From Mariniblastus sp. (GTDB lineage: Bacteria; Planctomycetota; Planctomycetia; Pirellulales; Pirellulaceae), in the NCBI GenBank assembly GCA_029251085.1, contig JAQXDZ010000023.1:1-64000 (forward strand): DNA of 64,000 nt, given 5' to 3'. Each line of letters starts with the position of its first letter. The first letter of the stretch is position 1. The notes below the pieces were generated by a model. The model was not told the DNA's origin. It ran no database searches and saw only the letters and a program-made list of their open reading frames with translations. Both the position numbers and the translations under genes were made by a program. Below, one piece after another: positions 14,133-64,000 of the stretch.

Positions 14133-14636
14133 ATCGTTAGGGCCGGGGGGAAGTCAAGCAGCGGCCGTTAGTCGACGCTTGGTTGTTTTCGTGGTGGTTA
14201 GAACGATAATTCCGGCGTTTGGGTGGCTAATTGCCAAGTGGGGCTTGGACTATTTCGCTAAATCCGTAAGAAAGCCCTTCTCTTTTTCAGCACGCTTGCG
14301 TATTCTTTTAGCTCGCCAAAAGCGAATTTGTTGCTGTCATTTTTCTAGAACGGGTTTTCGAATTAACGAAACCCATGGTTAACCGACATGCTTGGAAAAT
14401 GGTGCCTTGGTTACCATCGAGAGTTACGAATTCGCGGCGAAAATTGAACCGAACGCGTCTCAGGCAAAAACCTTGGTTAGGTAGTTGGAATTGCACGAGA
14501 CTCTGCGGCACAAACGGTGATAGCCTTGCTATCCATTGTCGACCGCTAGGTATCAGAGAGGATTCGCCTCTCACCCATTCGTTTTCGAAACGACTGGGTT
14601 GTGTATTTTTAACAATTTAATTGAGTGGTTACGCAA
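14133..14636 (+). promoter_or_regulatory. Long structured leader upstream of the DEAD-box helicase
   Basis: About 500 bases with no convincing gene. Three hairpins are visible on the plus strand: GGGTTTTCG with CGAAACCC (14352-14374), GAGAGG-ATTCG-CCTCTC (14556-14572), and a 12-bp stem with one mismatch (14573-14599). Long structured leaders are common for cold-induced RNA helicase genes. I infer a regulatory leader. A separate small RNA ending at the last hairpin is possible. Confidence 0.5.
14573..14611 (+). terminator. Terminator- or attenuator-like hairpin before the helicase gene
   Basis: ACCCATTCGTTT (14573-14584) pairs with AAACGACTGGGT (14588-14599) around the loop TCG with one mismatch. 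It is followed by TGTGTATTTTT. It ends about 26 bases before the helicase ATG, so it could stop leader transcripts conditionally. Confidence 0.5.
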
Positions 14637-48800: not shown

Positions 48801-50348
48801 TTACGTTCGGTAGTCATCGATGTCAAAGATGTTTTGCTGGTCATCGTCTGGTTTGTTTGGTTCTGAAAACACGGCGTTGTCATAGAGCCATGCCTGGCAG
48901 ACGTCTCGATCGGTGATAGTCCAGTTTTCTTCGCCGATCAAAGCAAAGGGGCGTTCGCCACATCCAGCGATGATAACGGCATCATCTGGTTTGGCGTGGG
49001 TGAGCGCCCATTCTATCGCTTTGAAACGATTGGGGATGAGCTGTGCTTTACCCGGATCTTCGAACCCGTCGAGAATTTGATGAGCAGGTTCGAAGTCGAC
49101 CAATGGTCCACCGGCTGTATTGGTAATAATGACATGGTCTGCCGCTCGCTCAGCAATTTCGCCAAGGCGTTGGCGTTCTCTTTGTGAGTGATTTTCATCA
49201 ATTGAGCAAAGGCACCAAACATTACCTTTTGTGTTTTGACGGATTGAGCGGATGGCGTTGGCAAGTTGCCCGCTGCTTCGTGCTGAATCGATCCAAACTC
49301 CAAAATCTTGCCCGCATTCGATCTTTTCGAGTCGCCCGGGAATTTGCCCGACCGACTCAAGGCCCCTGGCAATGTTCTCAATTTCGATGCCTTGAGCGAG
49401 TCCAACGGCTGTTGCTGCGAGGCAGTTATAAATATGTTGGTCGCCGATAATTGACGTTCTGACTGGGATTGAATCGGAGCCGGCGGTAATCATAAACGTT
49501 TGCCCACCTGCTGAGCAATCAATTTGCCTAGCTGTGATGTCGGCTTCTTGCTTGATGCCGATTGTTAAGACGGGACGATCAATTTTACTTAGTAAAAAGT
49601 GTGTTTTGGGGTCGTCTAGGTTTACAATCGCGAGCCCGGTTGGTTTGAGTTTATCCAACAGACGTAGCTTCGCCCTTTGGTAATTCGCCTGAGATCCATG
49701 GAAGTCGAGATGGTTTTCCCGAATGTTTGTCAAAATGGCGACATCGAGTTCGACGCCGGCGAGACATCGTTTTGCAAGGGCGGTGCTAGGTACTTCGATT
49801 ATCGCGTTTTCGCAATTGGCGAGTGCCATTGAGGTCAGTTGTTCGGCAAGCCACGGTGGATTTAAATCAGTGGCAGGAACTGAAGTTTTGTTTTTTCCCT
49901 GGCTTACCTCAATGGAAGAGATCAAGCCTGTGGTTTGGCCAGCTGCTTTGAGAATTCCAGAAACGAGATGGCAGGTGACAGTTTTCCCATCAGTCCCGGT
50001 TACACCGATCGAATTCAACCGTCGGCTGGGATTGCCGGCGAGTGCCTGACAAATTTTCCCATAAGCCTCACGGGAATCGTTAACGAGACATTGGGGGCGG
50101 TGTGTCGTTAGTAAACGTTCGGTCACGACAGCCGTCGCTCCGCGAGCGATGGCTTCCTGTGTAAAATCATGGCCATCTTGTTCTGAGTCCATGATGGCCA
50201 CAAACAGGTCATCGGTCTGACAGTCTGTCCAAAGACCACAGCAAGACTGGAAAAAGACATCGTCAGCGCCAACCAGCTTGGCATCGGGAAGAATGTCCCG
50301 AAGTCTGATGCCACGATCCGTATTGGTATTATACAACTGGGTACTCAC
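48801..50348 (-). CDS. Degenerate MurE-like Mur ligase
   Basis: The start is GTG 50348, with GGGAGG 4 bases upstream on this strand. The 515-residue protein has the three-domain Mur ligase layout with the ATP loop 'GVTGTDGKTVT' (about 118-123). Hallmarks of MurE are altered: 'EVSSHAL' reads 'EVPSTAL' (about 185-191), the 'DYAHTPD' loop is 'IDSARSSG', and the diaminopimelate-binding DNPR motif is 'NTAG'. The ATP site looks intact, so it may be a ligase of another substrate. It is not the housekeeping MurE. It is monocistronic in this window. Confidence 0.8.
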   Translation of the reverse strand: MSTQLYNTNTDRGIRLRDILPDAKLVGADDVFFQSCCGLWTDCQTDDLFVAIMDSEQDGHDFTQEAIARGATAVVTERLLTTHRPQCLVNDSREAYGKICQALAGNPSRRLNSIGVTGTDGKTVTCHLVSGILKAAGQTTGLISSIEVSQGKNKTSVPATDLNPPWLAEQLTSMALANCENAIIEVPSTALAKRCLAGVELDVAILTNIRENHLDFHGSQANYQRAKLRLLDKLKPTGLAIVNLDDPKTHFLLSKIDRPVLTIGIKQEADITARQIDCSAGGQTFMITAGSDSIPVRTSIIGDQHIYNCLAATAVGLAQGIEIENIARGLESVGQIPGRLEKIECGQDFGVWIDSARSSGQLANAIRSIRQNTKGNVWCLCSIDENHSQRERQRLGEIAERAADHVIITNTAGGPLVDFEPAHQILDGFEDPGKAQLIPNRFKAIEWALTHAKPDDAVIIAGCGERPFALIGEENWTITDRDVCQAWLYDNAVFSEPNKPDDDQQNIFDIDDYRT

Positions 50349-50797
50349 AAGGCCTCCCTGCCTGGCGAATGCCAAAATTCAAAAAGCGATTTCGTTCGCG
50401 GTAACTCGCGTTCAACCAAGCATCACACTTAGTCGAGTGGACGAGTACATGTCAGCATCCTGCCAACGAAATCGATTCTCATTAATCGAAAACTTTCGTC
50501 AAGGTTGATCGTTGAACTGCGTGGTTGGTTTTATATGAAAGCGTTAGCCAAAGATTTCTGCAATTCGCAATTGACATGGCTCAAAATTGAATGAATATGA
50601 CGTTTGTCGAGCAAAAAATTTACCGCGCCCTCGTGAAACTTTTTTTCTGGCGATTGTGCATGCTAGCTGCATGCGGTTCTTCCTAAGGTGAATCTCTTGT
50701 AGGCGTAGCCCACGATGTTGTTTAGATTCCCAGCTATTGATTTGAGGCTGGAAATTACCGGTTTTGTATTTCATTTGTGATTTGGCGGAAGAACTCC
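50349..50797 (+). promoter_or_regulatory. Divergent intergenic region with candidate promoter
   Basis: About 450 bases between the MurE-like gene and the HTH-EIIA gene. TTGACA at 50571-50576 is a good -35 element on the plus strand, but the -10 is weak (AATATG or TATGAC, spacer 17-19). Two GCATGC copies flank TAGCT near 50669-50686. No gene is seen. Confidence 0.35.
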
Positions 50798-51505
50798 ATG
50801 GACGAAGATTTTGACGTGATGTCTCTCGCTGCGTATTTGCATTTAACACCAGAGCAGGTTCGAAAGATGGCCAGCCGGGACCGCCTGCCTGGCCGTCGAG
50901 TGGGTGGGAAGTGGCGGTTTTCGAGAGCTGAGATACATCAGTGGTTCGAAAAGAAAATTGGAGCTTCTGATGAACAAGGCTTAACCGAGGTTGAAAAGGT
51001 TCTGTATCGGAATCCCAGTAATGGTCCGGAGGTGGAGCCGCGAATTTCGGAGCTGTTGCTACCTGAAACGACTTACGTTCCCCTGATGGCTCGAACAAAA
51101 AGTTCTGTAATCAAAAATATTTGCGATTTGACGGCAGAAACAGGTAGACTGTGGGACCCAGTGAAAATGGCGGAAGCACTGACCAGTCGTGAGGAATTGC
51201 ATCCAACGGCGTTGGGTAATGGAGTCGCACTTTTACACCCGCGGCGACCGCTGCCCTCGATTATGGGAGAGCCATTTCTGGCGCTTGGCATTACGACATC
51301 AGGAATTCCATTTGGAGGCCCTCGAGGTTGTTTAACAGATGTGTTTTTTTTGATTGGTTCGACAAGTGAGGCGGTTCATTTGAAAGTACTGGCGAGGTTG
51401 AGTCGGATGATTCAGCAGTCGGAATGGCTAACTGAATTACGGGAAAGTACATCTTCTGCAGACGCGTGGCAGATTATTGATGATGGTGATACTGGTCTAG
51501 AGTAA
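50798..51505 (+). CDS. HTH domain fused to a PtsN-type EIIA domain
   Basis: The start is ATG 50798, with GGAAG 6-7 bases upstream. Residues 5-55 are an excisionase/MerR-like winged helix ('DVMSLAAYLHLTPEQVRKMA', 'GGKWRFSRAEIHQWF'). From about 90 to the end is an EIIA domain of the nitrogen-PTS type: 'ALTSREELHPTALGNGVALLHPRRP' holds the phosphorylatable histidine, and 'FFLIGSTSEAVHLKVLARLSRMI' the next conserved helix. It looks like a transcription factor whose state is set by phosphorylation. No other PTS gene is nearby. The pseudo-receiver gene starts 37 bases downstream. Confidence 0.88.
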   Translation: MDEDFDVMSLAAYLHLTPEQVRKMASRDRLPGRRVGGKWRFSRAEIHQWFEKKIGASDEQGLTEVEKVLYRNPSNGPEVEPRISELLLPETTYVPLMARTKSSVIKNICDLTAETGRLWDPVKMAEALTSREELHPTALGNGVALLHPRRPLPSIMGEPFLALGITTSGIPFGGPRGCLTDVFFLIGSTSEAVHLKVLARLSRMIQQSEWLTELRESTSSADAWQIIDDGDTGLE

Positions 51506-51542
51506 TGTGAATTTGGTAACGGAATGTTTGAGGAGCGGTAGG

Positions 51543-52355
51543 ATGGTAACGCATAAGATTTTGGTGACCGGTGATTTTTGGCATTCCGATTTTCAAAAAA
51601 TCATTTCTAAATTTGATGTTCCAGTAACTTTAGTTCCGTTTGACAAAGTCGAAACGGTGGTGGATCAAAGTTATGATCTCGTGGTTTTAGCCCAGTCGAG
51701 ACGCGACCAATTTCTACAAGCGGACGTGGAGGAGTTGTTAGCGAACTTTCCAGCCGTTCCAGTTGTGGGCCTACTTGGCAGTTGGTGTGAGGGGGAATCA
51801 CGTTCCGGACGGCCTTACCCGGGAGTCATCCGAGTTTACTGGCACCAATGGGAGGGTAGGTATGCACAATTCGTTGAGCAGTTAGCGGAAGCAGGCATAA
51901 CGAACTGGCACGCACCGCGGACTTCAACAACCTCAGACCGTATCGTCTCGCAAACAATCCGGCGAGACGTTTCGATAGGCGCGGGGAATATTGGGGTAAG
52001 TGCGTGGACTCGATCCGAATACGAAATGTTGGATGACGCGATCGCCAGCTTTGGGTGGCGTTCCCGTTGGGTAGAGCGTTCCATTTGGGATGCTGCTTCG
52101 TCGGCCACTGTTTTGGTTATGTGTGTTGTCGCCGATTCCTGGACGGTAGAGTTAGAAAAGAGAATTGAGTGGCTAAACTCTGAGATACCTGACGTCCCGT
52201 TCGTTTTGTTGCTCAACTATCCTCGGGAGTCTGACGCCGAAGCGATTGCGGCAGCAGGAGTGTCGGCAGTGGTCTCCAAACCATTTGAGCTTCAAGATCT
52301 AAAAGTGGCGATTTCTGAAGCGGCTGGGAAAGAACTTCAGCGTCCGAAGGCATAA
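51543..52355 (+). CDS. Receiver-like protein without phosphorylation site
   Basis: The start is ATG 51543: GAGGAG lies 7 bases upstream. The longer frame from 51507 is spurious. The 270-residue protein has two alpha/beta halves. The second ends in 'AIAAAGVSAVVSKPFELQDLKVAI', which fits the last helices of a receiver domain including the conserved Lys. The acceptor aspartate is missing: the strand reads 'VLVMCVVADSWTVE'. No DNA-binding or enzyme domain is attached. It is probably co-transcribed with the HTH-EIIA gene and may be its partner. Function is inferred only from that. Confidence 0.72.
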   Translation: MVTHKILVTGDFWHSDFQKIISKFDVPVTLVPFDKVETVVDQSYDLVVLAQSRRDQFLQADVEELLANFPAVPVVGLLGSWCEGESRSGRPYPGVIRVYWHQWEGRYAQFVEQLAEAGITNWHAPRTSTTSDRIVSQTIRRDVSIGAGNIGVSAWTRSEYEMLDDAIASFGWRSRWVERSIWDAASSATVLVMCVVADSWTVELEKRIEWLNSEIPDVPFVLLLNYPRESDAEAIAAAGVSAVVSKPFELQDLKVAISEAAGKELQRPKA

Positions 52356-52452
52356 AGGGTTCTCAGGGTGTTGAATTCCGTCTAAGATTTTCGGTTATTC
52401 GAAAAGACTCCGAAATTTTGTCGACTTAAGAATTCAACCGAATTAATTTGCC

Positions 52453-53418
52453 ATGAACCAACCGCCCTCCGACATTCAACTCGCGCTGAAATGCTGGTTT
52501 TTGACTGGTGCTACTGCCAGTGGGAAAACGAAGGTCAGTCTGGAACTGGCTCGGATTTTGGACGCCGAGATTATTTCGCTGGACTCGATGGCAATTTACC
52601 GTGGGATGGATATTGGAACCGCCAAGCCGGATTCCACCCAGCAATCGGCCGTGCCGCACCACTTGATCGACATTGTTGACCCGCCCGAATCATTCAGTGT
52701 TTCTGAGTATCGTGACTCAGCGTTGAGCAAAATCCGTGAGATTCACGAATCAGGAAAGCAAGTTCTGTTCGTGGGTGGGACTGCTCTGTATCTCAAGGCT
52801 TTGTTACGTGGTTTATTCGAAGGCCCGCCGGCGGACTGGGATTTTCGGAAGGAGATAGAGCAGGAGATAGAGAATTCCGGAGCGGAATTTTTACACCAAC
52901 GGCTCGCAATGATCGATCCAGTGTCGGCACACAAGCTTCACGAAAATGATCATCGCCGTATCATTCGAGCACTGGAGGTTTACAAACAAACCGGAAAACC
53001 AATTAGTCATTGGCAGATGCAATTTGATGAAGGGAGGCAAGCCGATCAGTGCCGAGTTTTCACAATTCGACATGATCGACCCGTTCTGCATCAGCGGATT
53101 GAGGCGAGGGTGGAAGCAATGTTTTCGGAAGGATTGGTCGATGAAGTGAGGGGTTTGCTTGAGCGTTGGTCTGATATCGGGAAAACTGCCTCCCAGGCTG
53201 TTGGCTATCGGGAGGTGATCGACTTTTTAAGCGACAAGATGTCAATGGAGGAGACTGTCGAACGAGTGAGGGTCAGGACTCGTAAATTTGCACGGCACCA
53301 GGAAACTTGGTTCCGAGGCATGTCCGAATGCCGAATCCTTGACCTTGAATCCGAGTTTGATCCGTCCGAATTGGCACAGAAAATTGCAAGTGTTGGGTCC
53401 GAGGTAACGACCAGTTAG
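52453..53418 (+). CDS. miaA: tRNA dimethylallyltransferase
   Basis: The 321-residue protein has the P-loop 'LTGATASGKTKVSLEL' near residue 17, 'ISLDSMAIYRGMDIGTAKP' near 38, 'VPHHLIDIVDPPESFSVSEY' near 66 and 'FVGGTALYLKALLRGLF' near 97. The C-terminus has 'QAVGYREVIDFL' and 'RKFARHQETWFRG'. It adds a dimethylallyl group to A37 of tRNAs that read U-starting codons. It stands alone, converging on the M50-HlyD gene. Confidence 0.97.
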   Translation: MNQPPSDIQLALKCWFLTGATASGKTKVSLELARILDAEIISLDSMAIYRGMDIGTAKPDSTQQSAVPHHLIDIVDPPESFSVSEYRDSALSKIREIHESGKQVLFVGGTALYLKALLRGLFEGPPADWDFRKEIEQEIENSGAEFLHQRLAMIDPVSAHKLHENDHRRIIRALEVYKQTGKPISHWQMQFDEGRQADQCRVFTIRHDRPVLHQRIEARVEAMFSEGLVDEVRGLLERWSDIGKTASQAVGYREVIDFLSDKMSMEETVERVRVRTRKFARHQETWFRGMSECRILDLESEFDPSELAQKIASVGSEVTTS

Positions 53419-53508
53419 CCACGAGGTGGGGTGCGTTGCTGTGATTCCATGATTCGGGCAGTCGAACGTTAATAAGGTTTCGCCATTACTGAAATCGTCT
53501 TCTGTTTT

Positions 53509-55695
53509 TCAGAGAACTGCCGTCTGCGTCGCGAATTTGATTTTAGCTTCCAGCCACTCGGAGGCAGCAATGTAAAAGTAGTTTCCGAGGGATTGCTCTC
53601 CCGTTGGAAAAATCGCCCGACCTCTCTGGCCAGATTTTAAAATGCTGCTTTGGTTTGCTTTCAATTCAATAAAAGCATTGAACCGCGGAGTAAGTAATTC
53701 GAAATCTGGAGCCTTGGCGCTGTTGCTGTTGGCAATTGGCCTGACTGGAAGCGGTCCATCCGCATGGGCGCAAAGCGAGGGGTGAGTCGACGTGGTTGAC
53801 GCCCGTGGATTAACCCGAGTTAGTTGAGACTGGAACAGTGGTAATCCGGGCATGATGATCTTAATTGGATTCCCAACATTATTGTGAATTGAATCGAGAT
53901 CTCGCTGGTCAATTGAAACAACCACCTCTTTGGTGTTAAACGGAGCGATGGTTAGCAGTTCGTCGCCTCGGTGAACAAAACTACCGAGTCGATTTGCCAG
54001 GTCTCGCTGGAAAATAAATCCATCAAAAGGGGCGGCGATTCTTAGACCTTTTACGGCTTTTGTTTTTTCCACACGTTGTTCTTTGAGTTCTTTTTGCTTG
54101 GTTTGTTCGGCGAGCGCTAAGGACTTTTCGTTTTGTTTGCGATAAATGCGATATTGAACTTCAGACTCTTCAATCAAGCGATTTAGTTCGTTTGCTTCGT
54201 TGTTAATGTCAGGATTCTCTAGGACGATTAGTAACTGTCCTTTTCGAACACGCTGCCCATTTTCAACCAAGATATTTTGAATGAACCCCGCGGCGTCAGC
54301 GCGGATGTTGGTTTCTTTTGAGAACTGAACAATTGCGGGGGCTGATTTGATTGCCGGGGCTTTTAAGGTGGTGAATAAGAGCGTTCCGAGGCCGATCAAA
54401 ATACAAAAGCTTAGGCTTGTTCTCAGCAGATTGATCGATCGCTGAGAGTTCCGCATGAAAAGCGGTTTTAACGTTCGATACATCGGCAGGCCAAACCAGA
54501 GAGTCACGCCGAGTGCACTTAGGACGAGCCCGAGTCCGTCGAATAGAACTCCAGCGCCGATGATCAAGCTTAGGCTTATCGAAATCTTCCAAAAGAATGC
54601 AAGGCAACCGTAAATCGCAATTTGTCGAATTTCTGTGGGTTTGCAAAGGTTGTCAGTTGTGGGAAGCCCAAACAGAAGAGAGAGAGTTCGATCTCCGAAC
54701 CATTTGGTCCCTTTGCTGTACAGGTTGGGAATGTTCAATAAATCGGATAGTAAAAAATATCCGTCAAATCGCATGAGTGGATTTGCATTAAATAAAATGG
54801 TGGTCAGGCTCGACATAATGAAGATGTTAAATGCAATATTTGCGGTGACGCCACTTGTTTCGGTCCAGACAACCACCGCAACCGATGCAATGAATAGCTC
54901 GACATACATTCCCGCTGACGAGACAGCCATGCGGTGCCAGCGATTCGTGAATCGCCACATCGAGGTAACATTAACGTACGCCATCGGAGTGAATAAAATT
55001 AGCAAAACACCAGCTTCTGGGACTTCTCCGCCGTATTTGCGACACGCAATTCCGTGTGCCGTTTCGTGGATAAGTTTTAGTAAGACCCAGATAAGAAGTA
55101 GCCAGACCCAGCTGAACCCTGAAAGGATACCAGTGGAAGCAACGGATAATTGATCCCAGTGTTGATAGAGTTTTACCGATGCGAATAAACCGGTTCCACA
55201 CCAGGCGATGAAAAACCAAACTGAAAAAATCCATTGGATATATGGTTGTACTTTTGCAAGTAAATGATTTGGATTGAAAATCCGAAACTTGCAACTGATT
55301 GGGTTGATCCAGGCCATGATCTTCTGGCGATTGATTTTTTCCAATTGGTCGTTTAGGCGTTGGCCATTATCAAAGTCTTTGCCATAGGTTAAGTTCGTCT
55401 GTACCAACCACTGGCTAACTTCGATTGCAAGCTGTGTGGTCAAGTCTGGCTTTTGAAAGTCATCCGAAGAGTTAAGAAGGTCTATGATATCGCGAGCTGT
55501 TCGCTGACCGTCAATTAACGCCAAGAAACGATATTCCCGTTCGCCAATTTGGAAATATTTACTTCGAACAGGATCCTCGATTACAACAACGGCCCTATCG
55601 CCTTCCCAGCGAGTGTCGAACTTAAGTTCTGACCGCAGCGTCAGTTTTGATTCCAGCCAGGGATCAGCGTTTCGGTTTGTGTCAGCGCTGCTCAT
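53509..55695 (-). CDS. PqqD-like, M50 protease and HlyD adaptor fusion
   Basis: The ATG at 55695 lies 2 bases after the stop of the GAF-HlyD gene. The 728-residue protein has three parts. Residues about 20-90 resemble PqqD, a small winged-helix fold that binds leader peptides ('YFQIGEREYRFLALIDGQRTARDIID'). Residues about 150-450 are a multi-pass M50 protease with 'LIHETAHGIACRKYGG' as the zinc motif and 'NANPLMRFDGYFL' as the second site. The rest is an HlyD-type biotinyl-lipoyl and coiled-coil adaptor ('GFIQNILVENGQRVRKGQLLIVLENP'). It resembles proteins annotated as peptide zinc metalloproteases of the YydH type. It is last in the export operon and probably handles and passes on the exported protein. 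Confidence 0.85.
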   Translation of the reverse strand: MSSADTNRNADPWLESKLTLRSELKFDTRWEGDRAVVVIEDPVRSKYFQIGEREYRFLALIDGQRTARDIIDLLNSSDDFQKPDLTTQLAIEVSQWLVQTNLTYGKDFDNGQRLNDQLEKINRQKIMAWINPISCKFRIFNPNHLLAKVQPYIQWIFSVWFFIAWCGTGLFASVKLYQHWDQLSVASTGILSGFSWVWLLLIWVLLKLIHETAHGIACRKYGGEVPEAGVLLILFTPMAYVNVTSMWRFTNRWHRMAVSSAGMYVELFIASVAVVVWTETSGVTANIAFNIFIMSSLTTILFNANPLMRFDGYFLLSDLLNIPNLYSKGTKWFGDRTLSLLFGLPTTDNLCKPTEIRQIAIYGCLAFFWKISISLSLIIGAGVLFDGLGLVLSALGVTLWFGLPMYRTLKPLFMRNSQRSINLLRTSLSFCILIGLGTLLFTTLKAPAIKSAPAIVQFSKETNIRADAAGFIQNILVENGQRVRKGQLLIVLENPDINNEANELNRLIEESEVQYRIYRKQNEKSLALAEQTKQKELKEQRVEKTKAVKGLRIAAPFDGFIFQRDLANRLGSFVHRGDELLTIAPFNTKEVVVSIDQRDLDSIHNNVGNPIKIIMPGLPLFQSQLTRVNPRASTTSTHPSLCAHADGPLPVRPIANSNSAKAPDFELLTPRFNAFIELKANQSSILKSGQRGRAIFPTGEQSLGNYFYIAASEWLEAKIKFATQTAVL

Positions 55696-55697
55696 GG

Positions 55698-57626
55698 TTA
55701 CCAAACCGTCCAGTATCTGATTGATTCCCAACCTCGATGGAATAAATTCCAGCCGAGCGGTGCCCTTTCTGTCTCAATCTTCGCAGATCCTTGCATTCCT
55801 GGGCGGAATTGGTTCTGAGTGTTGGGAAGATGAACCCGTGCTATAAATACACTTTGGTTGTCAACGATTTCTGTACATGGATGAATGTGCTCGACCTTGC
55901 CAGTCCAACTTTCAAGTGGGAATGCATTGAGTTTAAATACAACAGGCATACCGGATGTGACGTATTGAATTTCCGATTCCGGAATGTTGATTTCAGCAAC
56001 CATTTCGTTCAAGGGCGCTACTTCAAATAACGTTTGCCCCATTTCTAAAGGCGCGCCTTCAGCTTTCTCGAGGTCGCCTGTCAAAACGAGTCCATCGATC
56101 GGAGATCGGACCTCAAGCTGCGTTAACTGCTGTTTGAGGATGTCGATTTTCGATAGAAAGCGGTTCATTTCGCTCAGAGCGATTTGCGATTCAGCGATGT
56201 TACCTAAAGCCAATGCGGACTCACGTCTTTTCTTCGCACCATCGTAATCTGCCCGAATGCCAGAGAGCTCAATTCGTAATTTCCTACCGTCGAGCGATGC
56301 GATCAGTTGATCGGCAGCAATCATGTCACCACTGTTGACGTATGTCTTTTCTAAAATTGAGTCGTGAGGCGCTGCAATAAATCTTCGCAATACTGGCTGC
56401 AGTTCACAGTCACAGTTAACTCGGTAGGTGAATGGAATCAGCATCACGGCGACGAGAATCGTTACAGCAAGAATAAAAGCATGTGTTTTGTTACTGCTTT
56501 TAAGTTTGCCCAGCCCGGCAGCAAAAATATCTTTTGTACCGCGATTGGCTCTAATCACTACGTCGACATGACTCGATGTCATTTGGATCAATTTGCTGCA
56601 ATAGGTTCGATAGTGCAGGTTTTCTACTTTTCCCCTGGAGCAAGCCAATAATACGACCCCTAGCCTGCGGCCATTTCCCGTGATCAATGGAATGCAAACG
56701 CAGGCTTCGGCCCCGTTGGCCTTACAGTATTTTTGAAGTGCTAGTTGTTCAATGGATCCTGTCTTTCCATCCTCCGGGTAACTGACTTCGTCGTTTTGAC
56801 GAGCAGTTTGTTGGCAGGCGTGAAGGATTGTCTTATTCGAGTCTGCATTGAAATCAATTTGCTCGACGTCTGAGATTGCCTGTAGTGAAACTACGTTTTT
56901 GGCATCGGTCAGGCAGATTGAAACTTGCTCTGCGTCACAAAGACGCCGCAAATGATTCGCGAGAATCACGATGGCTTGAGAGATAGATTGGGTTTGATCC
57001 AGTGAGTGAATCAAGCCAATTGAATCGGTAAGGTAGCGACTCTTGTTTTCCTCAGAATTCAAACTTTGTTTTTGATGCCAACGACTGATTGCATCGGACG
57101 CGATTCCAGTTAACCACTGTAGGCGTAAAATGCTTTCAGTTTTAGAGGAGAAACAGCCGATCAGGACGCTGTCAATTACACTGTTTGATTTTTTGTTGAT
57201 TTGTTTGGAAATAGGCGCTGCGACGAGTGTTGTGTGCGGTGAATTTTGGATGGGAGAGGAACAGATGTGATGCGTGCGAGCAACTCTCGCGAGCATTTCT
57301 TTGACCTGTAAATCAACAATCGGCCAAAGCGGGTCGTCTTCCGAGTCGGCTAGAAGTTGCGGATCGTTAAATTCTCCGTCGGTGTTTTTGGGCACATTCC
57401 AAATGCAGAGACAGTCCGTTTGTCGTTTTATGATTTGGCTGATGTTTAAATAGAGTTGGTCGAGCGAACTACTGCTGGCAATCGCGACTCCAAAATGCTG
57501 CATCAAACGCTGGTCGGAAAACGAATAGTCCGGTTTGGGAGTGTCGTTGTGGAGGCGCGGAACCTCTGGCCCAACCGTCGTGGCGAGGGGTGATGAGAAA
57601 TCAAAATTGAGTATGGGAGGATTCAT
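55698..57626 (-). CDS. GAF-domain and HlyD adaptor fusion
   Basis: Start taken as ATG 57626. A TTG at 57647 is possible. The 642-residue protein has one or two GAF-like regions in its first 370 residues ('QAIVILANHLRRLCDAEQVSICLTD', 'ACVCIPLITGNGRRLGVVLLACSRG'), a membrane segment near 390 ('AFILAVTILVAVMLIPFTYRV'), then an HlyD adaptor ('PHDSILEKTYVNSGDMIAADQLIASL', 'EVRSPIDGLVL', 'FRPGMQGSAKI'). GAF domains bind small ligands in the cytoplasm and HlyD parts bridge inner and outer membrane, so the protein could gate export. It ends 2 bases before the M50-HlyD gene and starts 52 bases after the HlyD gene. Confidence 0.88.
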   Translation of the reverse strand: MNPPILNFDFSSPLATTVGPEVPRLHNDTPKPDYSFSDQRLMQHFGVAIASSSSLDQLYLNISQIIKRQTDCLCIWNVPKNTDGEFNDPQLLADSEDDPLWPIVDLQVKEMLARVARTHHICSSPIQNSPHTTLVAAPISKQINKKSNSVIDSVLIGCFSSKTESILRLQWLTGIASDAISRWHQKQSLNSEENKSRYLTDSIGLIHSLDQTQSISQAIVILANHLRRLCDAEQVSICLTDAKNVVSLQAISDVEQIDFNADSNKTILHACQQTARQNDEVSYPEDGKTGSIEQLALQKYCKANGAEACVCIPLITGNGRRLGVVLLACSRGKVENLHYRTYCSKLIQMTSSHVDVVIRANRGTKDIFAAGLGKLKSSNKTHAFILAVTILVAVMLIPFTYRVNCDCELQPVLRRFIAAPHDSILEKTYVNSGDMIAADQLIASLDGRKLRIELSGIRADYDGAKKRRESALALGNIAESQIALSEMNRFLSKIDILKQQLTQLEVRSPIDGLVLTGDLEKAEGAPLEMGQTLFEVAPLNEMVAEINIPESEIQYVTSGMPVVFKLNAFPLESWTGKVEHIHPCTEIVDNQSVFIARVHLPNTQNQFRPGMQGSAKIETERAPLGWNLFHRGWESIRYWTVW

Positions 57627-57678
57627 TGAGAGAGCTAAATTGTGCAAAATTGACTAAGCCGAGTGGCCTAGAAGAATT

Positions 57679-58527
57679 CTAAAAGCTAAGCGAACAGCTC
57701 TCGCCGCTTCGCAATTTCATGTCTTGGTTGTCAATCAATAATTTGATATCAACGGTTCCCGACTGAGAGTCCGTTTCAACGCCAATGCGATACACCTTCC
57801 CTGTTACAAGAGAACCGTTCTCTAATCGAATCGTGTATTCTTGGTCAATTGAGAATTCGCCCAGTTGGTTGCTCATGATTGCAAAGGATGCTAAAAGTTT
57901 ATCTACCTGAATGATTGTTGCGACTTCCGGGTGAAGCGGTGAAAGGAACTCACCTTCACGCCGATGAATTTTCGCGACAATTCCGTCAAAGGGCGAAGCG
58001 ATGGATCGTCTGTCGAGTTGGACCTCGGCGCGGCGAAGTTCAATTTCGCGAACGGCCTTTTCTTCTTTGGCGGCAAGTACCTTGGCTTGAGCAATTGAGA
58101 GTTCCATTTCGGCGCGGATGATTTCGCTTTGACTCGCGTGTCCTCGTTTTTTTAGTTCATCCAGTCGCCTCGATATCTCTTTTCGTTTTTCTAGTAGTTG
58201 ATTGGCGGCTATCAATTGGCTGGTCGTTTGAGCCAACTCTTGAGCGATTTGTACTTGCAATTCCTGGACTCGGTCGTCGAGTCTTGCAACAGTTCCACCG
58301 GCCTCAATCTTGTCTCCCTCCTCTACCGCGAGTTCGGAAATAGCTCCGGCCTCATCGCTTGAGAGTTCGATGCTTCGAAATGGGGAAATAAAGCCGTCAA
58401 TCGAATCGTATTGGTCGGTTTGAGCAAGCGTGGAACAGTGGCTGAAAAGAACTGTAACGACGGCCAATGCAAAGACGCGATAACGCGATAATCGGGATTG
58501 GTTGGCAGAAGGTGGAATTAGTTTCAT
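57679..58527 (-). CDS. HlyD-family periplasmic adaptor
   Basis: The ATG at 58527 opens on a signal-like segment ('RVFALAVVTVLFSHCSTLAQ'). The longer frame is spurious. The 282-residue protein has the lipoyl half-motifs 'SIELSSDEAGAISELAVEEGDKIEAGG' and 'SIASPFDGIVAKIHRREGEFLSP' around a coiled-coil hairpin (about 90-165), then a beta-barrel. It should join inner-membrane partners to the TolC-type channel. It lies between the tolC-like gene (314 bases upstream) and the GAF-HlyD gene. Confidence 0.9.
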   Translation of the reverse strand: MKLIPPSANQSRLSRYRVFALAVVTVLFSHCSTLAQTDQYDSIDGFISPFRSIELSSDEAGAISELAVEEGDKIEAGGTVARLDDRVQELQVQIAQELAQTTSQLIAANQLLEKRKEISRRLDELKKRGHASQSEIIRAEMELSIAQAKVLAAKEEKAVREIELRRAEVQLDRRSIASPFDGIVAKIHRREGEFLSPLHPEVATIIQVDKLLASFAIMSNQLGEFSIDQEYTIRLENGSLVTGKVYRIGVETDSQSGTVDIKLLIDNQDMKLRSGESCSLSF

Positions 58528-58841
58528 GGTGGGTTTGACTCGAAATAATTGTGACCAAAGGGTGCAGATTTCGAGGAAACGTAGCTTATCCGAGCGAGAG
58601 TGAAGGCGAGATGATGCAAAAATCAATCCTCAATCATTCCGCAGGCCGCAAAACCACCGTAACGCTGATAATTGAACCTCCGCGAGTCGGGTCTTACAGG
58701 TTTTTCGGGTTGGGTTGTTGAGTTTTGGCAACCAGAAATGCTGGGGCCAGGCTGGACACTGCGTTGGTTCAGCAGGTTTTAGAGAACGCGATAACTTTGA
58801 TCGCTGAGAGAGCGTGGGATATGATCCGTCAGTCGCGGTCT
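58528..58841. other. Spacer between tolC-like and HlyD genes
   Basis: About 310 bases with no supported gene on either strand. I see an inverted repeat GTCGC/GCGAC near the tolC-like stop but no T-run, so no clear terminator. The HlyD-GAF-M50 genes may have their own promoter here. Confidence 0.35.
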
Positions 58842-61172
58842 TTATTTATCGCTGCGACCGGGGTAACCAAAGCTTGCGGGCAAGAAGTTCGACCGAAGGT
58901 TAGGTTGCCGCGGTACCGATTTTGCTGAAGGAGTTTGTGGTGTTACTTGGGCACCACCACGCTGTTGAATATTCAATTCTGGAGTACCGTTGTCGTTACT
59001 CTGACTAAAGTTTATGTTCTCGTGAATTAACAAGGTCCCCATGGTTCGCTGGAGTTTGACTTCCGAAGATTTTAGCTCCAGTTCAGCTTCGGCGTAAACG
59101 AGTTCAGCGTTTGTGAGTCGTTCTTGTGAATCTAATAATTGATCGAGTGCCGTTGTTGGAGTTTGGCCGTCAGCGAAATCACCTTCGATGAGCGCGAATG
59201 AATCCCATCGCCGGAAGCTTTGCTCGAGGTCTGCGCGGGCGGCAATGATTGCCTGCAAGGCCGCATCGAGGGTCTCTTTAGCTGAGTTTACACGACGCAG
59301 CGAAATTTGCGACTCAGCAACAACGTTGAGAATTTTCTCATCGACGACTGCTTTTATCTTAGCGAGCTCTAACTTGCTCTGTGTCACGCGACTTTGCGCG
59401 GCTCGGTTGCGATAGGGCATTTTAAATTCAAGCCCAACGGAATAGCCGGGGGTTGCCTGTCCAAACTGATCTACGATCGCTTGCCCAAGTGCAGAATCAC
59501 CTTTGAGTGCGCTGACGTAGGTGCCAAGTAGGAGAGATAATTCTGGAAGTAATTCATTCTCACTGATATCAAGGTCAATGCATTTTACTTTGGCACGAGC
59601 CATTGCTTCACGGATTTCGGGACGATTCTCTAAGGCTTTAAAAACGACTTGCTCTAAGTCAATTTTGACCCCAACGTTGTTGGGGGTTTCTGTCGGCAGC
59701 ATCTCGGTGGTCTGTTCTGCCTGCCAGTTTCGATCTGCGGTAAGTCGTCTTAATTCTGTTTGAGAATCTCGAATGTCTCGACGAGCGTTAGCGAGGTCGG
59801 TCTGCCGTGATTTGACGGCAGAGCGTGCACGAGTAATTTGGCTTGGGAGGGAATCGAGCTCTCGGCGGCCTTCGAGTATTTCTAAAACATATTCGCCCCG
59901 TGCGACATTCCTTTGCTTCTGAAGATAGACGCTGCGGTCAAAATAGAGATTCCAATAAGCGAAAACTGTCTTTTGAATCTCATCTTGAAGTTCTGCGGTG
60001 AACGTATCCCAGGCCGCGCCACTGGTTGCCTGTGCAATTAGGATTTGGCTCTCGTTGTAATACTTGCCACGGCCTTTCATGAGCGGTTGATTCACATTAA
60101 GAGCAAGTGTCGCAGTCCCTTGATCTTGAGGGGTGAAGAAATTCGAATTGCTGTTTTGAAAGCCGAGGCGTTGACTAAGTTCGTAGGATGCTCCCGTTTT
60201 TAGCTTTTTACGAAATCCAATATCACCAGTCCAGTTGTGATCCTTAAGGTAGTCTGATCCGTCGGTGGTGGTCGACAATGCATCTCCAACCGGGTCTTCG
60301 CGGTCTTCGAATTGGCTCCTCACAAAGGTAATGGGGTCGAAGTCAGCTTCCGCTTCGACGATTTGCTGTTCAAGAATCAAAGGTCGTTGACTGATCGCCC
60401 GAATTCTTGGTGAGTTTTGGAGAGTGGCATAGACGAGACTATTGGTATTCACCGGTTGTTCGGTTGCGTTTTCGACCAGAGGCGAAACCACTTTCGATTT
60501 CCACCATGTGTTGCCTTCAGCAAGCGAGTCTGGATTTGTTTGCTGAGAAGACGCGTCGTCTGCTCCGAGAAAGTCGTTTAACTCAATTGGATCTTGTTGT
60601 TGAGTCTTAGCGCTTAAAGGAGATTTTCCGGCGATGAAACCGCTTCGATTGGGACTGGATGGCCCTGATGGACCGGATGGAGCGAACGATGTATCCGGAA
60701 GCTTTTTGAAAATCGGAGTGAGTTTTAGCAGCGGGTCACCGTTGCCTTTTTTCGTTGAAATTGCGCGAATGGGAGTTTTGGAATTGAGTTTTCCTTGGTC
60801 TTGCGGATCGGGTGAGGAGTATGATTGCTGGAGCGGTTGAGCAAATGGTTTCTGATTGCCTCGGGATTTTCCGTCTTCGCCACGGTTTAGCACTGAGATC
60901 GGTTTTGATTTAGTTTGAAGATCGCTCGGCTTTTTGCTGGTGATCTCTTCTGGTTCGGCAAGTTGAGGTAAAGATTTAAGTTGAATCTTTCGAGCGTTCA
61001 AATTCAAAAACGTTTGGGTGCGGCTCGCTGCTCTAAGTTCATTCCTTACGCGAGGGATCGTTTCTTGTGCTGAACTGACAAGGCAGAGTAGATTTGCCAG
61101 TAATGACGTCGAAACGAAAGCGATCGAGAGGCGCGTTTTAGGTTTGAGTATCCAGTTCGGAATAAACGTCAC
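58842..61172 (-). CDS. TolC-family outer membrane efflux protein
   Basis: The start is GTG 61172, with GGAG 6 bases upstream on this strand. Frames further upstream lack such a site. The 776-residue protein has a signal peptide ('SIAFVSTSLLANLLCLVSSAQ'), a disordered Pro/Ser/Gln-rich stretch to about 235, then a TolC-type body of two similar coiled-coil and barrel halves ('QQIVEAEADFDPITFVRSQF', 'RAAQSRVTQSKLELAKIK', 'LDQLLDSQERLTNAELVYAEAELELKSSE'). It forms the outer-membrane exit duct. It heads the operon with three HlyD-containing proteins and faces the giant secreted protein gene across a divergent promoter region. Confidence 0.9.
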   Translation of the reverse strand: MTFIPNWILKPKTRLSIAFVSTSLLANLLCLVSSAQETIPRVRNELRAASRTQTFLNLNARKIQLKSLPQLAEPEEITSKKPSDLQTKSKPISVLNRGEDGKSRGNQKPFAQPLQQSYSSPDPQDQGKLNSKTPIRAISTKKGNGDPLLKLTPIFKKLPDTSFAPSGPSGPSSPNRSGFIAGKSPLSAKTQQQDPIELNDFLGADDASSQQTNPDSLAEGNTWWKSKVVSPLVENATEQPVNTNSLVYATLQNSPRIRAISQRPLILEQQIVEAEADFDPITFVRSQFEDREDPVGDALSTTTDGSDYLKDHNWTGDIGFRKKLKTGASYELSQRLGFQNSNSNFFTPQDQGTATLALNVNQPLMKGRGKYYNESQILIAQATSGAAWDTFTAELQDEIQKTVFAYWNLYFDRSVYLQKQRNVARGEYVLEILEGRRELDSLPSQITRARSAVKSRQTDLANARRDIRDSQTELRRLTADRNWQAEQTTEMLPTETPNNVGVKIDLEQVVFKALENRPEIREAMARAKVKCIDLDISENELLPELSLLLGTYVSALKGDSALGQAIVDQFGQATPGYSVGLEFKMPYRNRAAQSRVTQSKLELAKIKAVVDEKILNVVAESQISLRRVNSAKETLDAALQAIIAARADLEQSFRRWDSFALIEGDFADGQTPTTALDQLLDSQERLTNAELVYAEAELELKSSEVKLQRTMGTLLIHENINFSQSNDNGTPELNIQQRGGAQVTPQTPSAKSVPRQPNLRSNFLPASFGYPGRSDK

Positions 61173-61593
61173 AACAGTCTCCAACGTTTTATTGCATACG
61201 ACAGTTACTTTTATGTTTCGTTGAAAAACCTTGTAATTGACCAACCTACTTAGCGAAGTCGGACTAGAAATTCAGGCTCTTGGTGTCTTAAAACGCATAA
61301 TCGGTAAACCTTCGCAAGTGATGGCAAGGTTTTGTGAAACTGTGACACTCAGTCGTTTAGCAGTGGCAATGCTGAAAAGCGGTTTCTTTCCGACTGGTCA
61401 TGCTGTTACCTCGCTTTTGATTTGTTTTTGGAATTGTTTCTCCAATTGTGATCTCTTTCCAAAACGGAAGAGGTATCCTTGTTTGCCGGATTCATACAGC
61501 TTTACTCCGGATTAGTTTGAGCAAATTGAGATTGGTAGCTGTCACGGGAATACCACCAAGATTCACTGCGATTATCGATGAACGGTTGAAGCC
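61173..61593. promoter_or_regulatory. Divergent promoter region of the export locus
   Basis: About 420 bases between the tolC-like gene and the giant gene. TTTTGGAA (61426-61433) and TTCCAAAA (61457-61464) form an 8-bp inverted repeat around a smaller one (AATTG/CAATT), a possible operator. No gene is seen. Confidence 0.4.
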
Positions 61594-64000
61594 ATGCCAT
61601 CAATGCCAATGCGGCCTGCCGAAGGAAGTTTTCCTTTTGTCTCTAATGTCGAGCTAGTCGTACTCGAAGACCGAATTCTTTACGATGCTTCGCCACTTGT
61701 TGCATGCGCACAAGATATTTTGGAATCGGCGATTGGCGACGAGGATTTTGGTGCAGTGATGCTCGACGCCAGTTCTCTGTCTGGCTTTGAATCCGATTTT
61801 GTTTCTTCGGTGATCGAGTCGTTCGACGAATTTTCAAACGACGCGGTCAATGTTGAAACCGGCTTATCAAGTGCTCGTCAACTGGTTGTAATTGATAGTC
61901 AGGTCGGGGATGTCGATTCTCTCGTCGATGATATTCGAGCGCAAAATTCTGACGAGATAGAATTCGATATTGCAATTCTTGCAAGTGACGCAAATGGAAT
62001 TGAACAGATCACCGAATTTCTTGATGGGCGGGAATATTACGACGCTATCCACATTATTTCCCACGGTAGTGATGGCGAACTCCAACTGGGAAATAGTTCA
62101 GTCAACGCAAGTAATTTAGATGAATATGAGAGCCAGCTCTCCAGTTGGACGACCGGCTTGGCATTCGGTGGGGATGTACTGCTGTACGGTTGTGACTTGG
62201 CTGGAACTTTGGAGGGTAAGGCTTTTGTCGATCAACTGGCCGAAATTACAAATCGCGATGTCGGAGCGAGTGAAGACCTGACTGGATATCGAGACTTAGG
62301 GGGAGATTGGACGCTTGAGTATGAAACAGGAGAAATTGATAGCCGATTTGTTTTCACTGAACAGCTCGTTGAAGAGTGGGGGCACACGCTGGAGAGTCTT
62401 CAGCTCAGCAGCGAAAAAGACACTTACATCGTTCAAGCCTCCCCGAATACTTCGTTTGGTTCAGAGGGAGCCCTTCAGGTTTCCAAAGCAGGAGGTGTGG
62501 TTGGCAACGTTCGGACATTGATTGAGTTTGATTTGGGCGCAATTCCAGAGAATGTAACCATCAACTCGGCTTCTTTGCTTTTGCAGAGTGTTGAGTCTCA
62601 AAGTAATTTTGGAATTGAGTTGTTTTCGATTGCCAACCCATGGGAGTTGGACGCTGCTGGACAAGGAACAACGTGGACCGAAAGAGCAAATGGCATCAAC
62701 TGGGATTTAGCAGGTGCGGATTACGATTCTGGAGCAGTGGCGTATTCAGATCCCAGTTTGTTTTACAGTTGGGACGTTACACAATTGCTCGATGATTGGC
62801 TCACCAATACCAAATCAAATTATGGAGTGCTGCTTGGTAGTTCATTGCCCGGCAACGGTACGGTTACCTTTCAAAGCTCCGAAAGCGGTCCTGCTCCGCT
62901 TCTAGAGATTGACTATACGCCAAACAATAATGCTCCTGTTTTGGACAATGCGGGGGAGATGTTTCTGCCTGATATCCTCGAGGACGCTCTCGATCCTGCC
63001 GGCGCGTCTGTCGGAGAAATAATAGCCTCGGCAGGCGGTGACAGAATTACTGACGCTGACGTGGGGGCAGTTGAGGGCATCGCAATTGTCGCTGCAAATC
63101 AAACGAACGGTGATTGGCAGTTTGATGTCGGAAATGGCTGGGTTAATCTTGAAGCTGTGTCGGTTAATAGCGCAGTGGTTTTAGATGCGACTGCCTTAGT
63201 TCGTTTCGTGCCCTCAATTGACTATTTCGGTCAGGCTGGAGAACTGATCTTTCACGCGTGGGATCAGACGGATGGCAACCTCAGCGGGACGCTTGGCGTA
63301 AGTCTTGCTGAAACTGGTGGCTTGAGTCCTTTTAGTATTAGCAGTGAATCAGTCTCCCAGACAATTCTACCGGTCAATGACGGGCCTGTGATTTCTGGTA
63401 TCGAAACAACGTCACTGGAGTTTGTTGAAGGATTCCAGGGGTTGTCGGTGAGCTCGACAATCGTGCTTGCCGATGTTGATAATGAGCAGCTTCATTCCGC
63501 GACGGTAGTAATTGCAAATAATTATTCGCCGAATGCGGACGTTCTAATGTTTTCAAATGTAGGTGGAATTTCGGGATCCTGGGATAGCTTCACTGGAATT
63601 TTGACTTTGAGTGGGGTTGATAGCGTTGACAACTATCAAACAGCGTTGAGGACCATCGAGTTTCGTAATACCAGTGAAAGTCCAAATGTTGAGACTCGGT
63701 CTATTGAGTTCTCGGTCTCTGATGGTGAAACCGTTTCCAATGCGCAATCACGAAGCGTCACTGTGATTGCGACGAATGATGCTCCGGCAATGAACTATTT
63801 TTCTGGCGACTCACTTGTCTCACTGAACGACGGAGAAGCTCGTATCCTGGATGCAAGCGTCGCAGTCTCGATCTACGATCCCGATCTTATCACTAATTTT
63901 GATGGAGGTCGTTTGCGAATCGAAGGATTAGGGTTTGCCACTGAAGACGGAATTGGAATTGTAGAGGATTCTGATGTCATCTTATCTAATGGTTTAACCG
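61594..64000 (+). CDS. Giant secreted DUF4347/cadherin-type protein, N-terminal part (partial)
   Basis: The frame opens at ATG 61594, after an in-frame stop at 61579, and runs off the right edge (over 800 residues). Residues 20-35 hold the motif 'LVVLEDRILYDASPL', common at the start of very large planctomycete cell-surface proteins. Residues about 88-265 are a DUF4347 domain with 'IHIISHGSDGELQLG' (His157) and 'LLYGCDLAGTLEG' (Cys200). A DNRLRE-like domain follows (about 270-445, 'SASLLLQSVESQSNFGIELF'), then cadherin-like and calcium-binding-type repeats rich in Asp and Asn ('DADVGAVEGIAIVAAN', 'DNEQLHSATVVIAN'). It is probably the cargo of the export operon on the other strand. Confidence 0.9.
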   Translation, partial: MPSMPMRPAEGSFPFVSNVELVVLEDRILYDASPLVACAQDILESAIGDEDFGAVMLDASSLSGFESDFVSSVIESFDEFSNDAVNVETGLSSARQLVVIDSQVGDVDSLVDDIRAQNSDEIEFDIAILASDANGIEQITEFLDGREYYDAIHIISHGSDGELQLGNSSVNASNLDEYESQLSSWTTGLAFGGDVLLYGCDLAGTLEGKAFVDQLAEITNRDVGASEDLTGYRDLGGDWTLEYETGEIDSRFVFTEQLVEEWGHTLESLQLSSEKDTYIVQASPNTSFGSEGALQVSKAGGVVGNVRTLIEFDLGAIPENVTINSASLLLQSVESQSNFGIELFSIANPWELDAAGQGTTWTERANGINWDLAGADYDSGAVAYSDPSLFYSWDVTQLLDDWLTNTKSNYGVLLGSSLPGNGTVTFQSSESGPAPLLEIDYTPNNNAPVLDNAGEMFLPDILEDALDPAGASVGEIIASAGGDRITDADVGAVEGIAIVAANQTNGDWQFDVGNGWVNLEAVSVNSAVVLDATALVRFVPSIDYFGQAGELIFHAWDQTDGNLSGTLGVSLAETGGLSPFSISSESVSQTILPVNDGPVISGIETTSLEFVEGFQGLSVSSTIVLADVDNEQLHSATVVIANNYSPNADVLMFSNVGGISGSWDSFTGILTLSGVDSVDNYQTALRTIEFRNTSESPNVETRSIEFSVSDGETVSNAQSRSVTVIATNDAPAMNYFSGDSLVSLNDGEARILDASVAVSIYDPDLITNFDGGRLRIEGLGFATEDGIGIVEDSDVILSNGLT

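Follow-up and report, generated by a model that had tools for sequence, protein, structure and literature searches.

The first 64,000 bases of contig C126 (163,100 bases) of a 5.49 Mb Mariniblastus sp. genome, referred to here as the window, carry a four-gene operon for a TolC-type channel (OEP), a short HlyD adaptor, a GAF-HlyD protein and a PqqD-like/M50/HlyD fusion (M50-HlyD), facing the gene for a giant DUF4347 protein. We give an even chance to the reading that the operon and the giant form an exporter-cargo pair, in which M50-HlyD reads a LE.R tag at the N-terminus of the giant, adaptors and the TolC-type channel convey it, and a secondary SecA encoded elsewhere in the genome pushes. We infer that the giant is shipped to the cell surface by this machinery.

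Gene content of the export locus

The export genes run on the minus strand in the order OEP, HlyD, GAF-HlyD and M50-HlyD, with the giant gene divergent on the plus strand, and all were found where an earlier note on this DNA had placed them. The features are:

53509–55731, minus strand: PqqD-like/M50/HlyD fusion (Pfam HlyD_3, 54.6 bits)
53590–54363, minus strand: HlyD/MacA-like adaptor domain of the fusion
54757–54789, minus strand: second M50 motif, NANPLMRFDGY, intact
55054–55068, minus strand: M50 zinc motif HETAH (HExxH kept in 12/12 aligned family members)
55399–55623, minus strand: PqqD-like domain, residues about 37–111, modeled as three strands and three helices
55698–57647, minus strand: GAF-HlyD (Pfam GAF, 25.4 bits; HlyD_D23, 75.1 bits)
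57679–58626, minus strand: short HlyD/RND_mfp periplasmic adaptor (TIGR01730, 130.3 bits; cut-off 94.9)
58627–58841: interval separating OEP from HlyD, only 215 bp by the gene coordinates
58842–61244, minus strand: TolC-type outer-membrane channel (Pfam OEP, 70.1 bits)
61245–61593: divergent intergenic region between operon and giant gene, 349 bp by the gene coordinates
61594–64000, plus strand: portion of the giant gene in the window; the gene runs on to contig position 68076 (2,160 amino acids (aa))
61663–61689, plus strand: LE.R tag LEDRILYDA, residues 24–32 of the giant (motif pattern)
61882–62391, plus strand: DUF4347 domain of the giant, with a caspase/CHAT-like predicted fold and conserved His157 and Cys200

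No ABC gene was detected by Pfam among 17 genes, ten around the operon (48801–64000) and seven downstream, and no short SecA_DEAD gene lies between the OEP and HlyD genes. The earlier view that the locus has no ATPase of its own is therefore borne out, there being neither an ABC nor a SecA gene. The type I secretion hallmark of an HlyD-type adaptor with a TolC-type channel is present in the operon, and the hallmark ABC exporter ATPase is absent both from the window locus and from the clusters of relatives.

The M50-HlyD fusion is likely to start at Met14 (about position 55692), and its predicted location is the inner membrane, which agrees with the place assigned to it in the earlier note. The PqqD-like N-terminus, also claimed there, is backed by the family profile, not by the single sequence: a 32-member profile (positions 9–95) matches the solved PqqD structure 3g2b with an E-value of 2.8e-4. 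The Pfam M50 score of the fusion alone is below the cut-off (19.6 versus 27.2 bits), and the features of an M50 (site-2) protease are all present, namely HExxH, the second metal-binding motif and, in the model, the M50 core fold. The NCBIfam daptide metalloprotease family NF041824 scores 165.1 bits over residues 52–411 and fails its cut-off of 300. A paralogue of M50-HlyD is found on the same contig (C126:88515-90764), between a gene for a 230 aa protein and one for a 1,003 aa TPR protein, and another lies on contig C62, beside GAF-HlyD and short SecA genes.

Hydropathy plots show a hydrophobic stretch at residues 38–60 of the OEP protein, and since this signal-peptide-like stretch starts near residue 33, the listed TTG start is probably set too far upstream. 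The short HlyD adaptor has a hydrophobic stretch at residues 50–70 and likely starts at Met34, while GAF-HlyD consists of a GAF domain (228–360), a single hydrophobic stretch (386–414) and an HlyD part (425–618).

The giant protein, its tag and its tail

The giant comprises DUF4347 (residues 97–266), CBM96/DNRLRE, cadherin/Ig repeats and a conserved C-terminal tail, and RTX repeats are absent from its Pfam matches. Over five orthologous window-type giants, 84% of the columns in the tag region (residues 22–40) are identical, and the tail is 96% identical, compared to 54% for DUF4347 and 58% for the repeats. Judged by the hydropathy of the N-terminus, an ordinary Sec signal peptide was rejected, as there is no hydrophobic core in the first 80 residues (best 19-residue Kyte-Doolittle mean 1.13), and for this reason the route to the periplasm suggested in the earlier note, by way of Sec, is unsupported in its ordinary form. 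The starts of five proteobacterial giants (LESRQLFDG, LEARYMFDA, LEPRFLLSA, IEPRILLSA and LEPRVLLNA) likewise combine a basic stretch with a LE.R-type motif, and show no hydrophobic core by eye.

Of 435 DUF4347 homologues the top 120 were compared: 96 have the strict tag pattern, and many of the other 24 are near misses or have cut starts. The pattern was absent from all 1,055 other open reading frames (ORFs) of at least 200 aa, spurious frames included, at 80 named, mostly proteobacterial loci of relatives; these were the 80 top-ranked among 565 confirmed matches, and lean to Proteobacteria near the first query sequence. The LEPR-XLL family NF012209 proved too strict as a tag marker for planctomycetes: it was found in 17/246 genomes and missed the window giant, which scores 13.2 bits against a cut-off of 17.

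The C-terminal stretch GYVFWTLRGSALMALALAQLPSWQMIDPLPVL of the giant is also seen in DUF4347 giants of planctomycetes, gamma- and deltaproteobacteria. A strict tail pattern was found in 31 of the 120 homologues, a set with many partial sequences. As a universal export signal the tail can be dismissed, as alphaproteobacterial LEPR giants at SecA-bearing loci do not have it.

The same genome has further sequences of interest here. Contig C74 (L005:3131-6157) holds another DUF4347 start, also bearing an LEDR tag, and contig C18 (L207:2-6329) a second tail-type giant end followed by a sensor gene (see later); the two may belong to one gene. A 1,770 aa ORF on contig C50 (L222:7524-12836) lies on a stretch matching the LEPR-XLL family at 23.2 bits, and no exporter gene was called in the 16 kb read around it.

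Conservation of the gene set in relatives

Among the 80 loci, GAF/HlyD is present in 75, a SecA-like gene in 63 and the short HlyD in 51; 51/80 have a same-strand neighbor, at most 1.5 kb away, that is a giant, a DUF4347 ORF or a tagged ORF. When only loci flanked by 5 kb or more on each side are counted, a giant is found at 39/46 and SecA at 40/46. The divergent layout of operon and giant is kept at L036, L038, L040 and L043 and, with a SecA gene, at L208/L209. The adjacency of a giant, which the earlier note proposed to check and whose absence it took as refuting, holds for the nearest relatives and for most well-flanked proteobacterial loci, and fails for orthologues of about 50% identity (see later).

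ABC-type ORFs, called by a Walker A plus LSGG pattern, were found within 3 kb of only one of the 80 loci (L155), where the ORF is 2.8 kb away, on the upstream side of the cluster, and by eye resembles a metal-uptake ATPase. None lies inside the cluster at any of 127 loci drawn, and in the six that have such ORFs all are outside it. An ABC transporter as a regular part of the relatives' loci, which the earlier note had named as evidence that would count against its reading, was rejected by this pattern scan.

Across 246 genomes of the phylum, M50-HlyD is found in 57. It occurs in 16 of the 17 genomes with the LEPR-XLL family (the exception is G236; Fisher 1.6e-10, uncorrected for relatedness) and in 10/10 genomes with a DUF4347 match of at least 90 bits (Fisher 2.3e-7, likewise uncorrected), seven of which have the two on one contig, no more than 10 kb apart; it is present in four of ten genomes with weaker DUF4347 matches.

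At all seven of the proteobacterial plasmid loci the upstream neighbor is a giant gene or a long open frame, and SecA is present at three. Lengths of these giants include 4,459 aa in E. coli, roughly 12,900 aa in Pseudosulfitobacter and roughly 16,200 aa in Variovorax. On the E. coli IncF plasmid NZ_CP081687.1 (44829–64580; L115, L118), genes for TolC, two adaptors and M50-HlyD accompany a DUF4347 Ig/cadherin giant, and neither an ABC nor a SecA gene is present in the 29 kb read. Among complete E. coli genomes, 24 of 5,426 have the adaptor genes of this set, and Citrobacter plasmids also match.

The export motor

A machinery of this kind was described in silico by Kamneva, Poudel and Ward in 2015 (PMC4452313), the available text of which lists M50-HlyD, GAF-HlyD, HlyD and sometimes OEP, with no ABC gene; a short secondary SecA_DEAD protein is the proposed ATPase and M50 the pore, and in some cases the parts are dispersed in the genome. 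The M50-HlyD, GAF-HlyD and HlyD genes lie together in the window, along with OEP, but as the loci of that study, as far as its available text goes, have a short SecA_DEAD gene and the window operon has none, the latter is a SecA-less variant and not a full member of that locus type. In many planctomycete relatives a gene of about 640 aa is found between OEP and HlyD, with SecA_DEAD scores of 242–322 bits at L058, L063, L067 and L072, and the same interval in the related loci L208/L209 houses the secondary SecA gene. Because so many relatives carry a SecA-like ATPase gene in that place, the idea of a borrowed ABC protein, raised in the earlier note, is unsupported. In two plasmid records, secondary SecAs are labeled as prepilin peptidases (L111:15029-17053, SecA_DEAD 331 bits; L112:14177-16093, a hidden Markov model (HMM) match).

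The window genome has one secondary SecA (C62:40716, Walker A GEGKT), about 3 kb from an M50-HlyD gene, and in five near relatives (G003, G007, G008, G017 and G019) a short SecA likewise lies within about 5 kb of another M50-HlyD. The C62 protein might be speculated to work in trans. Matches to SecA_DEAD are common, as 59/60 relatives have two or more at an E-value of 0.001, weak matches included.

A tree of 134 M50 proteins, made by a quick method, places the window clade (22 rows, of which 16 are without SecA and six are of unknown state) among SecA-bearing planctomycete loci, and from this nesting the window operon has probably lost its SecA gene. The SecA label requires 12 changes on this tree, at least nine of them by well-supported branches. 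DUF4347 giants track SecA-less loci in the set of 80 (7/11 with room downstream, versus 2/63), and a DUF4347 giant and SecA occur together in G308, L056, L174 and others.

The linked membrane sensor

Two signaling genes are found downstream of the giant, at the following contig positions:

68298–70742: PAS/GGDEF/HD protein (Pfam)
71032–72351: response regulator with an HD domain (Pfam)

Tails are often directly followed by a gene whose product has, by alignment, a common N-terminal membrane-periplasmic module, found in several phyla, and the outputs are GGDEF-HD, GGDEF, GGDEF-EAL or histidine kinase-receiver. The sensor is accordingly not always a cyclic di-GMP (c-di-GMP) enzyme, with histidine kinases at L175 and L184. 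In 157 loci of at least 5.5 kb, which were not drawn at random, include near-copies and had their tails judged by eye, 20 of 27 sensor genes are immediately preceded by a tail-type ORF. When adjacency was scored with 52 of 78 DUF4347 rows typed (the 26 omitted being mostly short frames) and 56 sensor rows of which two were merged, 15/55 sensors were directly downstream of a typed giant and 22/55 shared a contig with a DUF4347 row (all 78 considered).

The sensor occurs in 28/60 relatives, 27 of which also have DUF4347. Strong matches were obtained in only two of the 246 phylum genomes, the window genome and G308, the latter (L208/L209) with a sensor and a tailed DUF4347 giant, then divergent OEP, SecA, HlyD, GAF-HlyD and M50-HlyD genes. 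In Betaproteobacteria, sensor-module proteins are found directly behind SecA-bearing sets (L194:14538-16109 and L201:8151-9758).

The DUF4347 domain

The fold of DUF4347 was taken from a structure prediction made with 13 sequences. In the prediction, the conserved His and Cys, found by residue patterns in 118 and 108 of the 120 homologues, sit at the ends of neighboring strands, and the domain would fit clan CD (caspase/CHAT-like). A DUF4347 protein of Pseudomonas aeruginosa, Tce1, is represented in PDB 9qpe (Hcp3-Tce1), whereas in the window DUF4347 is the N-terminal domain of a giant with an export-type tag. As a universal mark of cargo the domain was rejected, since only 33/60 relatives carry it.

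Proposed mechanism and alternatives

If the operon and the giant are exporter and cargo, the PqqD-like domain of M50-HlyD is predicted to bind the LE.R tag at the N-terminus of the giant, by analogy with the leader readers of ribosomally synthesized and post-translationally modified peptides (RiPPs), and the M50 domain, by analogy with RiPP proteases, may cut the giant near the tag. From M50-HlyD the chain would then pass to the other two adaptors and the TolC-type channel, the three adaptors making up one conduit, and the C62 SecA-like ATPase would drive export in trans. The tail of the giant could stay in the inner membrane, leaving the exported protein tethered, and the downstream membrane-bound GGDEF-HD protein might sense the anchored end. 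More tentatively, and with less confidence than the pairing itself, we propose a separate ABC-free class of exporter, in which a PqqD-M50-HlyD gate recognizes the LE.R tag and relies on a borrowed SecA-type motor to drive single chains of roughly 1,200 to 16,000 residues through adaptors and TolC; in the window branch the giant would be hooked beside a dedicated sensor, and the adhesin would be a contact antenna for c-di-GMP or phosphorelay outputs.

A number of observations count against the exporter-cargo pairing or parts of it. The PqqD-like domain is not listed by Pfam for the window sequence alone at an E-value of 0.01, and the window tail is only moderately hydrophobic (best mean 1.37 versus a usual 1.6), so that a membrane hairpin is probable and no more. 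Well-flanked loci without a giant by the rule used number seven of 46 (L138, L147, L156, L168, L194, L197 and L199), although at L197 a giant is present past the sensor gene. The orthologues of about 50% identity (L045, L046 and L048–L055) have no adjoining DUF4347 or LE.R ORF, and eight of these ten loci are without OEP by HMM (the OEP that L045 does have is seen by Pfam as well); ORFs of 1,178–1,550 aa are found at some of them, the one at L045 being an AAA protein. Cyanobacterial DUF4347 proteins begin at DUF4347, with no tag, and the DUF4347 proteins of 1,581–1,612 aa at L219–L221 have no tag pattern, tail or nearby exporter, indicating that the domain also has another context. Tails are lacking upstream of seven of the 27 sensor genes: those at L176, L197, L201 and L202 follow the short HlyD gene of an exporter set, that at L194 follows the end ORF of such a set, that at L070 is divergent from an OEP gene, and that at L230 does neither. 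Conversely, L218 has a tail and no sensor call. Three ABC_membrane (PF00664) proteins are encoded elsewhere in the window genome. Lastly, of 12 proteobacterial genomes in which the locus has no SecA, several of them metagenome-assembled, 11 show only the full-length SecA, which means that a secondary SecA is not always needed; other genomes may make do with housekeeping SecA or with no such ATPase.

This last observation is the starting point of an alternative that keeps the same exporter and cargo, with housekeeping SecA/SecYEG as the motor or no dedicated ATPase at all. Guided by the tag, the giant would reach SecY although it has no normal signal peptide, and from the periplasmic side onward its passage would fall to the adaptors and TolC. 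The E. coli plasmid set, with neither ABC nor SecA in the stretch read, and the 12 label changes on the M50 tree argue in the same direction, but the giant has no hydrophobic core in its first 80 residues and the window genome retains a secondary SecA near an M50-HlyD paralogue, and we consider this explanation possible though unlikely. It is quite improbable that the four genes serve to export something small, for instance a processed peptide, with the giant gene a mere neighbor. The resemblance of the M50 part to daptide and epipeptide maturation proteases would fit such a role, as would the lack of an adjoining DUF4347 or tagged ORF in the orthologues of about 50% identity, whereas the giant or tagged ORF beside 39/46 well-flanked loci, and the co-occurrence of tag family and machinery across the phylum, do not.

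An uncoupled arrangement, in which the giant and sensor are a signaling pair exported by other means and the operon serves other tagged proteins (those of C74/C18 and C50), would account for the giant-tail/sensor pair on C18, around which the 12 kb read shows no exporter gene, and for the tail-sensor loci L223 and L224 of the single-contig genome G025, with no exporter in the 12–14 kb read. The divergent layout is nevertheless kept together with the giant at L036, L038, L040, L043 and L208/L209, and the arrangement appears very unlikely. The three ABC_membrane proteins of the genome could in principle provide the shared ABC component of an otherwise ordinary type I system; against this stand the 127 drawn loci, none of which has an ABC-type ORF inside the cluster, the lack of RTX repeats among the Pfam matches of the giant, and the SecA-like ATPase gene of most relatives, and we see hardly any likelihood in it.

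Significance

From sequence comparison, four elements appear to be new: a putative cargo class of giants with a basic, signal-peptide-free N-terminus and a LE.R tag; a modeled caspase/CHAT-like fold for DUF4347; a very conserved C-terminal tail that is probably membrane-bound; and a linked gene for a membrane sensor, with homologues in several phyla and swapped outputs. At issue is how planctomycetes and many proteobacteria display proteins of thousands of residues on their surface. The exporter described in silico in 2015 had no cargo, and the tag, candidate reader, tail and sensor make it testable, with experiments feasible in genetically tractable strains such as Methylobacterium extorquens AM1, which is named, with its locus META1p2399-2402, in the available text of PMC4452313. 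The SecA-less versions, those of E. coli plasmids included, raise the question of what drives TolC-linked protein export without an ABC protein.

Additional genes at the loci

In the window, an HTH_17 N-terminal domain is fused to PTS EIIA_2 (50777–51505, plus strand), and the next gene gives a weak match to FleQ. Proteobacterial loci have DUF3467 genes between the giant and GAF/HlyD (L112:9699-10019 and L117:9651-9947), and at L111 a SapC-family gene (14215–15036) lies between M50-HlyD and SecA. At the Variovorax locus a gsp-type pseudopilin/secretin cluster directly follows the M50-HlyD set (L114:14261-22891).

Comparison with known systems

The type I systems HlyB-HlyD-TolC and LapBCE likewise have HlyD adaptors, a TolC-type channel and very large, repetitive cargo, but the window set has no ABC ATPase and no RTX Pfam matches, and has an N-terminal tag plus C-terminal tail instead. 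Daptide and epipeptide RiPP systems likewise join a PqqD-like domain to an M50 protease; the window fusion differs in having a fused HlyD adaptor, and in being linked to giants rather than short peptides. PqqD-like domains read RiPP leaders, in the manner of RiPP recognition elements. In Lap-type retention, the adhesin LapA is governed by the protease LapG and the receptor LapD, and the likeness to the window would lie only in the c-di-GMP-type neighbor.

The closest description is that of Kamneva, Poudel and Ward (PMC4452313). The statement in the earlier note that no characterized system has this make-up stands insofar as no experiments were found in the literature, and requires amendment in that the gene set had been described in silico, according to the available text of that paper. 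No cargo of this exporter was found in the open-access literature. As far as its main text is available, the 2015 study names no cargo, tag, tail or sensor and does not mention DUF4347, cadherin, giant proteins or PqqD; the window differs from it in pairing the SecA-less operon with a tagged and tailed giant and a membrane sensor gene.

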